DNA of 64,000 nucleotides from Citrus sinensis (Eukaryota > Streptophyta > Magnoliopsida > Sapindales > Rutaceae). Positions within the stretch are counted from its first letter, which is position 1. Every line of letters starts with the position of its first letter. The notes under the pieces are model-generated. The model searched no databases. It was not told where the DNA came from and worked only from the letters and a program-made list of their open reading frames with translations. Of the stretch, positions 20,615 to 37,367 are shown piece after piece. The stretch covers positions 27,411,501 through 27,475,500 of the forward strand of contig NC_068559.1 in NCBI RefSeq assembly GCF_022201045.2, given 5' to 3'. A program made the position numbers and the translations under genes.

Positions 20615-20710
20615 CCCAGAAATCAATTCTTAACACCACCACCACACCAGTCAACCGAAACGGCCGGTAAAATACGGTCTGTATATCCGGCCCTACCCTG
20701 AGGCCCAATT
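20615..20710 (-). pseudogene. Relic of LRK10L-type kinase gene, unit A
   Basis: About 100 bases read as a decayed copy of the intact receptor kinase near 35706-35820, in the same minus orientation. Shared blocks are CCCAGAAATCAA, ACACCACACCA, CAACCGAAACG and CCCTGAGGCCCA. They correspond to the kinase segment around TPGYLDPDYHRSFRLTEKSD and LLELISG. Compared with the unit B relic, about 25 bases in the middle are missing. It lies about 120 bases before the HSDH start. Confidence 0.75.
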
Positions 20711-20827
20711 CGTCCTGACTTCGTCGGACCCTAACCAAAGTTATTAAACAAGAAGCTGTGCTAAGCCACCGAGAGTCTGAGACCGCAGCGCCAGTCCCCA
20801 TTTAAAATAAATAAAAAGAGAGAAAAA

Positions 20828-22728
20828 ATGGCAACACTGACGAAAACCCCTTTGGTTCTGATGGGATGCGGAGAAGTTGGACGCCAGCTCCTCCAGCACA
20901 TTGTTTCCTGCCGATCACTTCATGCCAATCTGGTACTCCTTCTCCACTTTCCGAAGTTTATTAGCGCCCCACAAATTAACTAATTAATTAATTATTTAGT
21001 AGCTATATATTCATTAATTATTACATGTCGGAGATGTATTCTTTTGATATGCACTTGCCTGCCTTCTAATAAACTCGTCGATGATTCTGTTTCTATAGAA
21101 GACTGGTAAATTTGTTTTAACTGTAACATTTCATGATTGATGATCGGTCGGCACGGCAGGGAGTGCATTTGCGAGTGGTAGGAGTAAGTGACAGCAAGTC
21201 ATTGGTTGTTGCGTCGGATGTTTTCACAAAGGAGTTCAACGATAACCTCTTATCAGAAATTTGTCGCCTCAAGGCGGGCCACTCTTCTCTCTCAACTCTT
21301 ATTGGTGGTTTCGGAGGTAATCCTCTTATATTGTATTGTTGAGGATATAATAGATTACTCATTCTGTTTATTTCTCATGCTTTTGCTTTTCTTTTGATTC
21401 TTTATCAAAGGTGAATGCCAAGTGTTTCTCGATTCTGATTTGAGAGGAAAGTTATCAGAAATTGCATCTCTTCTGGGTATATCAACAGGTTCGTCTTCAT
21501 GACAATTACTATCTCACCGGCCTTTATACTTCTTTTGAAACACTGATTTGTTGTTCAATCAATTGAAGTTTCATGTTTGTTTTTAGAGTTTAGTGATTCT
21601 TATCATTCATTCACCTCAAGTAAGGTCATTTCAAGCTTGGTCTTTTGCTTAATCTTGAAACAGGTTTGGCCTTTGTTGATTGCTCTGCCAGTTCTGAGAC
21701 TGTTGAAATATTAACTCAAGCAGTTGATTTGGGTTGTTGCATTGTCTTGGCAAACAAGAAGCCTCTTACATCTACAATGGTAATAACTTTACAAGGCTTC
21801 CTTATTTGGTAGTAAATGGACTTAGTTGGACATGTATAGTCATCCTATGGCTATTCTGTGATCAACCACTAGCAGACTTAATTCTGGAGATGGCGACACT
21901 TCCTGCTGTCATTAAATGCTGCAATGCCATTTCTTTTGTGGCCAGTTCGAACATTCTATATTTTTACCATTTAAGATGAATTACGTTTGGTGTTTAATTC
22001 TTTTAAAATTAAAAATGACAAATTTTCATTGAGCAATTTAGTGCAATATTAATGTTTTTGAATTTCATCTAGAGAAGATAATGAAAATTCCTCAACAAAT
22101 CACTAATTGGAAGAGCATATATAAATCTGTTGAAGGAAAATGATAACTTTTTGTTGTCCCTTTATTTTCCATACCGTTTTGTCTGCTATTCATGCTTAAC
22201 AAGTTGTTTCTATTGCATGTGAATTTTTAACCAACCTCATGCTATTCTGTAATGTAGGAGGATTATGACAAATTGGTCTCACGTCCACGCTGTATTCGGT
22301 ATGAGTCAACTGTAAGTGAAGTTTCCTGCTTTTGTCATATAAAAGGAAATCGTGGGTGAAGTGTCTCATTTGATGTCTGTTTCTCCATAGGTTGGTGCTG
22401 GCCTTCCTGTCATAGCATCCTTAAATCGTATTCTTTCTTCAGGAGACCCTGTCCATGGTATTGTTGGAAGTCTGAGTGGTATTGGTTTTCTTCTTTTCTT
22501 TTTTTTTTTGGGTTAGACATTTATTCTTCCTTCACATATGAAGTTCATGCTTTTCCTGTATCTGCTTGTATTTTTTTGCAACCATATTTCATATATGAAT
22601 ATTGGCTGTCATTTGCATAATATATTTTGTATTAGGTACATTGGGGTATGTAATGAGCGAGGTTGAAGATGGGAAGCCACTTAGTCAAGTTGTTAAAGCT
22701 GCTAAAAGCCTGGGATACACTGAACCAG
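20828..22728 (+). pseudogene. Homoserine dehydrogenase, 5' part only (exons 1-7), unit A
   Basis: Exons 20828-20932, 21160-21316, 21411-21488, 21664-21779, 22258-22311, 22391-22478 and 22636-22728 match exons 1-7 of the complete unit B gene with an intact frame. The NAD(P)-binding motif is present as MGCGEVGRQLL, as is ANKKPL. The gene then ends: exons 8-12, which hold the DVARK catalytic lysine and the C-terminal [13 protein letters not shown] segment, were not included in the duplication. Reading past the exon 7 donor meets a stop at 22803-22805. One notable replacement is Arg to Cys in SRPRCIRYE. The product would lack the catalytic half, so this is a truncated duplicate, probably non-functional as an enzyme although transcription is possible. 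Confidence 0.88.
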
Positions 22729-34950: not shown

Positions 34951-35396
34951 GCCTGTTTCATCCAGCCTTAACAAACACAAGGGGGTGAAATGTGCTTCCC
35001 CCAAGTCCCCTAAAGAAATTGATAACAGCGAGCTTGAATGTATGTAGTGTTTACTATCCATTTTTCATCATGTCCAATAACTTAATAACATAAACAAGTG
35101 TTCACCAATGCCAATAAGAAAGATGGAGATGGCGCCTCAAATTATCAATATATTATTTGGTTGTAATATTACTTATTCGCTGTACAAATTCAAATAACAT
35201 AATTGATTGAAGGCGAAGCTAAACTAGAACAGCAATGGGCGACAGTGTTGCATTCAAATTCTTTTCTTACCGAACCCTCCTCTGACATACGCGATAAATA
35301 AATAAATAAATATCCCATTGCTTGTTGCAGTCAGTCAAACCCCACACACGTGCAGGTGGGTCCCGATCTCACCCCACGAAAATTAAGTAAACTGAG
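34951..35396. other. Short spacer between the TTC38 relic and the kinase 3' end
   Basis: Probably degraded TTC38 3' flank plus the 3' UTR of the minus-strand kinase; includes a short AAAT repeat at about 35294-35312. No gene seen. Confidence 0.5.
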
Positions 35397-37367
35397 TCAG
35401 CGCACTGCCACGTCAATGACATTGAAATTGGAGCCACGGAGGTCGCCGCCGCCACCACCACGTACGCAGCTCCCGATCCTTTTCAGCTCCTCGACGATTT
35501 CCTTGGCATCCGGACGATCATCCTTATCAGCGGCGACGCATCTGAACGCCAGTTCAGCCAGAGCATCAACACCGTTCATCGCCTCTTCATGAAGCGCCAA
35601 AACGGGGTCCACAACTTGATGCAACAACCCCATCTGGATTTTAGACACAACCAAATCGGCCAATGCCATCTCTCTCTTCTCCCTGCTTTGGTCCACTGCT
35701 TTCAACCCAGAAATCAACTCCAACAACACCACACCAAAACTGTACACGTCACTCTTTTCAGTCAACCGAAACGAGCGATGATAATCCGGGTCTAAGTACC
35801 CGGGGGTACCCTGAGGCCCAGTGCACACATACTCGGAACCGGACGACGACGTTTCGGGAAGAACCAAGAGCCTGGACAATCCAAAATCTCCAACTTTAAT
35901 CCTCATATCTTTCTCCACAAAAATGTTAGACGAAGTAATATCTCTGTGAACAATCGGAGGCACGACAGAGAAATGCAAGTACTCCATGGCTAAAGCTGTT
36001 TGCAAAGCGATATCAAGCCTGACCTGCCACGTCAACGACCCTTCGCGGTACAAGCTCTTTGAGCCGTGGAGATGGTCAGCAAGTGTGCCGTTGGGAATGT
36101 AATCATAGACCAAAAGCAAACCTCTAGGATCGCTGCAGTACCCGTGAAGCTTAACAAGATTTGGGTGATCAATAGAGGACAGAATCAAGATTTCGTTGCA
36201 GAAGGATTTAGTGGAGAAGGATTTGTTGCAACTGTGGTGTTTACTATGAAGGTATTTAACGGCAACGATTCGGCCGTCAAATAGTTGGCCCAAGTAAACG
36301 GATCCAAAACCTCCGTCGCCGATTTTGCGCTTCGGGTCGAACTTATTAGTGGAAGATTCGAGCTCTTCGTAGGTGAATACTGGGGGGAGAAGACTCGCTG
36401 AGCGGTGGCGATGAAGAAACAGAGTTGTTGGATCTTCTAATTCTGTCTCTGACGACGACCTGAACCTTTTGGACCTGAAAATAGCTATGCCAATTGAAAA
36501 CGCAAGCAGCAAACATGTTAACGAAAAGACGGTGCTTAAGATTGCAATGCGGTTGAGTTTGGTTGGGTGGATCCAGGGAGGTGACAAGCTCGATTTGGAA
36601 TGGAAACAAAGGAAAGGCTTGTTAGGGTCGGATGAGTTGAATCCGCAAATACCACCGTTGTTGGCTTCACAGTCTTTGCAGCGAGTGAAGTAAGAGTCCT
36701 GAACTTGATCGTACTCAACTTGAATACCCAACTTCAAGAAACTGTCTAGAAACCCTAAAACGTCAGTTTGGCAGCCTTGCTCGGATGACAAAAGTCCGTG
36801 AGAAGATTCACAGTCTTGAACGAGCTGAGCTGGGTTCTTGATGAGCCTGCATTCCCAGAGACAGCGGCTACAGTTAGGGAGATTCGGAGGGGAGCAGGGG
36901 CGGAGAAGGGAGAGGCGAGAGCAGGAGCTGTCGGAGGCTCGAAAGGGCGTGCCGGAGAAGTTGATTGAGTGATTCGGAAGAGTTGAAAGGTCAGAGGAGG
37001 AGGAGGAGCAGTTAGGGTTGGGGTTGGCGTTGGGGTAATGGGGAGAGAGAATGAGGGAGGTGGAGTTGGGTTCGAAGTGAAGGATAGAGAAATTGAGGTG
37101 GTTGATTGAGATGACGGAGTGTGGCGAAGAGCATCTGATTTGAAAAGAAGGGTGGCCGCAGCCTGGTGACGATGAGAAAGGAAATGGAGGCACCGCTGTA
37201 GTGAAGGGCGGACATGAAGAAGAAGAAGATCTAGCTGATGTAGTTGTTGAAGTGGAACACGAGTGACCTCCAGTTAGAACACAGATAAATATTGGTAACG
37301 TGAATGAAACAAGAGGAAAAGGCAAGTTTCTTGATGAGGAAGGCATGGGGAGAAAGAGATGGGACAC
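35397..37367 (-). CDS. LRK10L-type receptor-like kinase with WAK-like ectodomain
   Basis: A single exon encodes 656 residues. There is a hydrophobic N-terminus (about residues 13-33; Met8 is an alternative start), then a galacturonan-binding-type ectodomain (CPPFTTAVPPFPFSSSPGCG, about 52-70). A WAK_assoc cysteine cluster follows (NCSRCLWEC, CKDCEANNGGICGF). One membrane span lies at about 274-297, then the kinase: glycine loop IGDGGFGSVYLG (349-360), Lys371, Glu392, HRD at 474-476, DFG at 494-496 and GTPGYLDPDY in the activation segment. All catalytic residues are present, so an active Ser/Thr kinase is expected at the plasma membrane. It resembles the Arabidopsis LEAF RUST 10 disease-resistance locus-like kinases (LRK10L, possibly the 1.5 type). 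A role in defence or wall sensing is an inference. Part of its kinase region has two relics upstream of the HSDH copies. Confidence 0.9.
   Translation of the reverse strand: MSHLFLPMPSSSRNLPFPLVSFTLPIFICVLTGGHSCSTSTTTSARSSSSSCPPFTTAVPPFPFSSSPGCGHPSFQIRCSSPHSVISINHLNFSILHFEPNSTSLILSPHYPNANPNPNCSSSSSDLSTLPNHSINFSGTPFRASDSSCSRLSLLRPCSPPNLPNCSRCLWECRLIKNPAQLVQDCESSHGLLSSEQGCQTDVLGFLDSFLKLGIQVEYDQVQDSYFTRCKDCEANNGGICGFNSSDPNKPFLCFHSKSSLSPPWIHPTKLNRIAILSTVFSLTCLLLAFSIGIAIFRSKRFRSSSETELEDPTTLFLHRHRSASLLPPVFTYEELESSTNKFDPKRKIGDGGFGSVYLGQLFDGRIVAVKYLHSKHHSCNKSFSTKSFCNEILILSSIDHPNLVKLHGYCSDPRGLLLVYDYIPNGTLADHLHGSKSLYREGSLTWQVRLDIALQTALAMEYLHFSVVPPIVHRDITSSNIFVEKDMRIKVGDFGLSRLLVLPETSSSGSEYVCTGPQGTPGYLDPDYHRSFRLTEKSDVYSFGVVLLELISGLKAVDQSREKREMALADLVVSKIQMGLLHQVVDPVLALHEEAMNGVDALAELAFRCVAADKDDRPDAKEIVEELKRIGSCVRGGGGGDLRGSNFNVIDVAVR

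Follow-up and report, generated by a model that had tools for sequence, protein, structure and literature searches.

Genes and relics at the locus

The analysed window is a 64,000-nucleotide stretch of the Citrus sinensis genome (contig NC_068559.1, positions 27,411,501 to 27,475,500), which contains relics of two protein-coding genes: a TTC38-like gene, encoding a tetratricopeptide repeat (TPR) protein, and a receptor-like kinase gene. Both parents are intact in the same window, and the names TTC38 and LRK10L are those that presumably apply to them. The parents, the relics and the homoserine dehydrogenase-like (HSDH) gene enclosed between the relics are listed here by window position.

12244..16913, + strand: intact TTC38-like TPR gene, 14 exons, 467 amino acids (aa); parent of the TTC38 relic
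35397..37367, - strand: intact receptor-like kinase gene (LRK10L/WAK-like), uninterrupted reading frame of 656 codons
34527..35186, + strand: TTC38 relic, truncated at its 5' end; 3' part of intron 11, exons 12-14, introns 12-13 and about 230 bp of 3' flank
27365..27483, - strand: kinase relic copy 2, about kinase codons 515-553, 115 bp upstream of the HSDH start codon
20615..20707, - strand: kinase relic copy 1, in the first unit of a younger tandem duplication
27599..33428, + strand: intact HSDH gene, 12 exons in frame, 381 aa, between both relics

From left to right, the TTC38-like gene (+) is followed by a tRNA-Gly gene, GSTU1 (+), kinase relic copy 1 and a truncated HSDH copy. The second tandem unit begins at this point, and GSTU2, kinase relic copy 2, intact HSDH (+), the TTC38 relic and the intact kinase (-) then follow in order.

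The TTC38 relic comprises the last three of the 14 exons and immediately precedes the intact kinase, from which its end is separated by about 210 bp. In a self-BLASTN search of the window, positions 16487-16890 matched 34544-34941 in direct orientation (65% identity, E 1e-25). Overall, homology extends from 16471/34527, within intron 11, to 17185/35186. Parts of introns 11, 12 and 13 are retained, intron 12 being shortened, and the 3' flank remains homologous for about 230 bp beyond the stop codon (16957-17185/34957-35186; 0/200 shuffles reach the score). Exon 12 is open, and exons 13 and 14 are shifted in frame by 4-bp insertions. Since the relic retains introns as well as 3' flanking DNA, it arose by duplication at the DNA level.

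The kinase relic is about 115 bp long, corresponds by its coordinates to about codons 515-553 of the 656, and lies upstream of HSDH in both tandem copies. The same self-comparison matched 27365-27483 to 35706-35820 in direct orientation (78.5%, E 1e-18), and 20648-20707 to the same stretch of the kinase (77%, E 5e-4). In the relics, shifts and stop codons disrupt the parental frame, and another frame is open across them by chance. Retention of introns is uninformative here, as the kinase parent is a single uninterrupted reading frame.

In each of the three relic pairs, none of 60 dinucleotide shuffles reached the observed score. Both relics are real and reciprocally placed, and each keeps the orientation of its local partner. 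The first-pass annotation had proposed a TTC38 relic with introns just before the intact kinase, and a kinase relic between GSTU and HSDH; the alignments of both pairs bear out these placements and orientations.

The sources of the relics were sought throughout the 300-Mb genome (11 contigs). The TTC38 protein gave 15 exon-level matches; the gene itself accounts for 14 of them and the relic for the remaining one. As there is no other TTC38 match in the genome, the source of this relic is local. The origin of the kinase relic required a different comparison, since its source stretch belongs to a conserved part of the kinase domain. At the DNA level, matches to this stretch occur at two other places in the genome (59 and 64 bp, at 83% and 80%), and among the matches listed for the kinase protein (the best 67 of 1795 candidates), none besides the gene itself exceeds 54% aa identity. 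A control set of 21 other loci was assembled from 19 protein matches and the two DNA matches, giving 22 loci with the local kinase. Against the local kinase, relic copy 2 reaches a score of 331 and relic copy 1 one of 174; against the other 21 loci, their scores do not exceed 140 and 81, respectively. For the corresponding stretch of the intact kinase, none of the other 21 loci scores above 243, which is below the 331 that this stretch has in common with relic copy 2. As the relics score by far the highest against the local kinase, they are copies of that gene among the loci compared. DNA searches of the genome with the relics listed no further copies, which is weak evidence, as one search omitted even the intact kinase. 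These results also led to the rejection of capture from elsewhere in the genome, for the TTC38 relic because the genome has no second match and for the kinase relic because none of the other 21 loci comes as near to it as the local kinase.

Transposable-element capture, or retroposition of processed transcripts, is very improbable as a source of the relics. Transposon-like repeats do occur nearby (a dispersed repeat at about 27074-27220 and an inverted-repeat element at 23068-24350), but the TTC38 relic retains introns and 3' flanking DNA, on which ground retroposition was rejected for it. The search for terminal inverted repeats covered the surroundings of the TTC38 relic (33400-35450) and of kinase relic copy 2 (26580-27700), and none frame either relic; the first interval held a single weak inverted pair (17 nt, 82%), one arm of which falls within the TTC38 relic, and the second held no pair.

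The 14 exons of the TTC38-like gene join in frame without internal stops, and splice contexts were inspected, including those of exons 6/7. Pfam searches recovered the Homoserine_dh domain in HSDH (E 1.2e-47), and the kinase domain and GST_N above cut-off. GUB_WAK_bind remained below its cut-off, as did the weak TPR matches that were the only ones found in the TTC38 protein.

The younger tandem duplication and the age of the relics

The segment between the TTC38-like gene and the TTC38 relic has been shaped by a second, younger duplication, the parts of which are as follows.

17321..24621, + strand: tandem unit 1, with tRNA-Gly, GSTU1, kinase relic copy 1 and truncated HSDH; blocks 82-95% identical
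24622..30081, + strand: tandem unit 2, with a tRNA-Gly remnant, GSTU2, kinase relic copy 2 and the 5' half of intact HSDH
20828..24621, + strand: truncated HSDH copy, exons 1-7 only, cut at the right end of the duplication (from alignment blocks and exon matches)

The breakpoint of this duplication falls inside HSDH intron 7, and a common GCAA can be read from the sequence at the junction. Kimura two-parameter (K80) distances between the units are 0.037 for HSDH introns, 0.046 for the GSTU 5' flank and 0.025 for GSTU exon 1, and are higher in the surroundings of the kinase relics (0.093) and for the GSTU 3' flank (0.123). The intergenic DNA between GSTU and HSDH (20100-20828 vs 26861-27598) thus diverges more than its neighbours, for which gene conversion of the neighbours is a possible reason.

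The units also differ in smaller features. An intact tRNA-Gly(GCC) gene is present in the first unit (17432-17502); its counterpart in the second unit (about 24733-24794) is missing some 8 nt following the anticodon arm, and ARAGORN does not detect it. A 1.28-kb element (23068-24350), bounded by terminal inverted repeats of 35 nt (83%) and flanked by a target duplication of 9 bp (23059-23067, 24351-24359), sits in intron 7 of the truncated HSDH and is absent from the intact copy; from its features we take it to be MULE-like (Mutator-like element). A dispersed repeat with many genome matches (17994-18289) lies in the GSTU1 5' flank; in the second unit, an aligned counterpart exists for its right part only. 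A dispersed short repeat between GSTU2 and the kinase relic (27074-27219) has at least 13 further places in the genome.

The relics are more diverged from their parents than the tandem units are from each other. The K80 distance of the TTC38 relic is 0.229 (0.158-0.309) in exons, 0.325 (0.228-0.439) in introns and 0.325 (0.244-0.430) in the 3' flank. Distances between the kinase and its two relic copies are 0.181 (0.104-0.277) and 0.198 (0.105-0.310); these rest on 113 and 92 sites, and their intervals overlap widely with those of the TTC38 relic, leaving room for a roughly two-fold difference. Judged by these values, the divergences of both relics are compatible with one age. The ratio of exon to intron divergence (0.229 to 0.325) would be about that expected of one neutral and one constrained lineage, which would speak against full copies having existed. 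Their greater divergence makes the relics older than the younger tandem duplication, as does the presence of the kinase relic in both of its units; how much older depends on the stretch chosen for comparison.

The relics might also be remnants of genes lost after a functional phase. Differences between the TTC38-like gene and its relic number 14, 11 and 13 at codon positions 1, 2 and 3 (70, 69 and 71 sites; 210 in total, without the unalignable end of exon 14). For the kinase, they are nearly even at 6, 5 and 9 (38, 39 and 39 sites). Such an even spread is as expected for a fragment that never worked. Tests based on these counts were run under four assumed rate settings. Function of the relics over their entire life gave a joint P of at most 0.011 under all four settings and, as far as codon positions can tell, is unlikely. 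The relics may also have had no long functional phase, since the codon pattern carries no signal of one; a short phase remains compatible.

Whole-gene copies or a truncating duplication

The first-pass annotation explained the relics by an ancestral [TTC38, kinase, HSDH] block that was duplicated as whole genes and then lost one kinase, the other TTC38 and one HSDH. This history predicts the observed order and orientation, is compatible with the relic divergences, and accommodates the TTC38 3' flank, which would have been included in the duplicate. It also implies that remnants of the missing parts might be found next to the relics, and these were searched for.

Gap costs in the first alignments were so permissive that unrelated stretches, too, aligned over their full length; the key extension tests were therefore redone with stricter scoring (16 comparisons), and genes were compared with gaps in a further 72 comparisons (60 shuffles each). 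Among the 16, the TTC38 3' flank was tested twice and was significant both times (0/200 each). The DNA beyond the kinase (39734-40131) compared with the HSDH 3' flank (34034-34412) gave P ~0.02, reduced under stricter scoring to a 40-base A/T-rich match, and the remaining comparisons had P >0.1. Three of the 72 gene-against-gap comparisons reached P <=0.033, about the number expected by chance. Across both sets, there was no trace of TTC38 exons 1-11 upstream of the relic (33430-34526), no trace of the other 94% of the kinase beside the kinase relic, and no convincing remnant of a second HSDH beyond the kinase (37368-40880). Homology flanking the kinase relic was looked for by the same comparisons and not found, and DNA upstream of TTC38 did not match DNA before the TTC38 relic (P ~0.16).

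The power of these searches was estimated from simulated pieces. TTC38 pieces at the observed divergence were recovered in 99/100 cases at 150 bp, 75/100 at 100 bp and 10/100 at 60 bp, and kinase pieces in 97/100 at 60 bp. HSDH pieces were recovered in 60/60 cases at 250 bp, 51/60 at 150 bp and 19/60 at 100 bp. The rates are approximate, the pieces having been scored without background, and short scraps of HSDH or TTC38 may escape detection.

Duplication of the block as whole genes is thus unlikely, though it remains a serious candidate. It requires three losses, each with a large deletion; the missing parts were not recovered despite the power of the tests; the codon positions carry no signal of a functional phase; and the DNA upstream of TTC38 is unmatched before the relic. 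The original proposal is partly supported, a shared local duplication being its best-fitting element. Its full copies, its inclusion of HSDH in the duplicated block and its functional phase do not find support.

The best reading, which we hold tentatively and consider nearly balanced between right and wrong, is a single local duplication of a convergent TTC38/kinase pair that was cut inside both genes. TTC38 (+) and the kinase (-) would have been tail-to-tail neighbours at the start. One direct duplication, with its breakpoints at roughly intron 11 of TTC38 and roughly codon 515 of the kinase, would have left TTC38 complete on the left, followed by a 3' piece of the kinase and then a 3' piece of TTC38, with the complete kinase on the right. 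The extra pieces, without promoters and 5' parts from birth, would have decayed, and there would never have been two working copies of either gene. The right copy would correspond to 34527-35820, still continuous with the intact kinase; the left copy would have been interrupted by the tRNA-Gly/GSTU segment and would lack about 520 bp. HSDH, at the junction of the pieces, and GSTU, in the left copy, would have arrived during or after the duplication. Much later, the stretch containing the tRNA, GSTU, kinase relic and HSDH was duplicated in tandem, with a breakpoint again within a gene.

Several observations favour this truncating duplication. Breakpoints inside both genes yield the observed order without any gene loss, and hence with fewer losses than duplication of whole copies. 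Both relics derive from the facing 3' halves of their parents. In extending from intron 11 across the 3' flank to a point close to the kinase, with no trace of exons 1-11 upstream, the TTC38 relic fits the right copy of a duplicated segment. The compatible divergences of the relics and the even spread of differences over codon positions fit as well. Moreover, the first HSDH copy was truncated at birth by the younger duplication, which provides a precedent at the same locus.

Other observations weigh against it. In the left copy, the terminal 309 bp of the kinase and the intergenic DNA next to them are predicted beside the kinase relic; neither is there, and their loss must be assumed. The positions of HSDH at the junction and of GSTU inside the left copy are unexplained and require extra events, and a donor HSDH elsewhere in the genome was searched for and not found: genome-wide, HSDH matches are limited to the window gene (by protein search) and to homoserine dehydrogenase domains on a single contig, C3, and the Homoserine_dh family search alone gave places on C3 only. 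The codon evidence also weakens if function is assumed for half the life of the relics (joint P 0.021, 0.093, 0.142 and 0.012 under the four settings), and the kinase relic alone is weak evidence even against function all the time (P 0.016, 0.156, 0.290 and 0.002). Finally, tandem and proximal pseudogenes are not especially fragmented in a plant survey, and dispersed ones are (PMC7935947).

One event could account for the position of HSDH if it both brought the gene between TTC38 and the kinase and duplicated at least some 1.3 kb of target DNA (34527-35820), a variant that we consider improbable. On this reading, an entire relocated gene would be enclosed by a target duplication of unusual length, with the relics as its two ends, and the HSDH 5' flank would now hold a piece of the kinase.

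Alternatively, the relics may be filler DNA that was copied from nearby genes during break repair, in two independent templated insertions: one of some 115 bp upstream of HSDH and one of some 660 bp downstream. Both relics are indeed short, derive from local genes and show no detectable extension past their edges, and filler-DNA copying of gene fragments is discussed for plant pseudogenes in PMC7935947. Independent captures do not predict that a piece of TTC38 would carry its own 3' flank and end close to the kinase, however, and both pieces keep the parental orientation, occupy reciprocal sites and have compatible divergence. Such a double capture appears quite doubtful.

A further candidate was an ancient second TTC38 gene, present since distant relatives split. 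Arabidopsis, we assume, may have two such TPR genes around GSTU13/GSTU14 beside a DUF569 gene; the literature gave nothing on gene order. For the TTC38 relic, the modest intron divergence and the even codon positions speak against this candidate, which was rejected. Two DUF569 genes are also present in the window (40883-41647 and 43881-44480), with 68% DNA identity over 291 bp, and constitute a further local duplication.

Comparison with known plant pseudogenes

In PMC7935947, fragmented and single-exon pseudogenes are the most abundant types in the five plants studied, and tandem-derived pseudogenes are the best at retaining flanking homology. The relics resemble the tandem/proximal non-processed pseudogenes described there, in that they are DNA copies near their parents, retain introns and flanking homology, and cover their parents partially. 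They differ in being fragments of two neighbouring genes, placed reciprocally and possibly derived from one event. Furthermore, the survey ties fragmentation more to dispersed than to tandem/proximal copies, which does not favour a truncating local duplication at this locus.

The locus also recalls other processes. As in reciprocal gene loss between duplicates, opposite copies are without opposite genes; unlike in that process, there is no sign here that full copies existed. Gene movement by break repair with filler DNA was reportedly described by Wicker et al. in 2010. The same repair process, with the movement of genes and the origin of gene fragments, is discussed in PMC3445842, and the locus is similar to such cases in that one gene, HSDH, is found where the duplicated flanking pieces meet. 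It differs in that the donor copy of HSDH was not found in the genome. We found no account of the locus in the literature, which is weak evidence, as the searches were not aimed at the locus by organism.

The relic pair is best regarded as ordinary genome wear, apparently the leftovers of an old local duplication that cut through both genes, and falls short of proving that two full copies were lost. Reciprocal fragments can mimic reciprocal gene loss, as one duplication that cuts two convergent genes leaves the same arrangement with no gene lost. The general view of such loci is unchanged; given a comparison of relatives, this one is a potential marker of local rearrangement.

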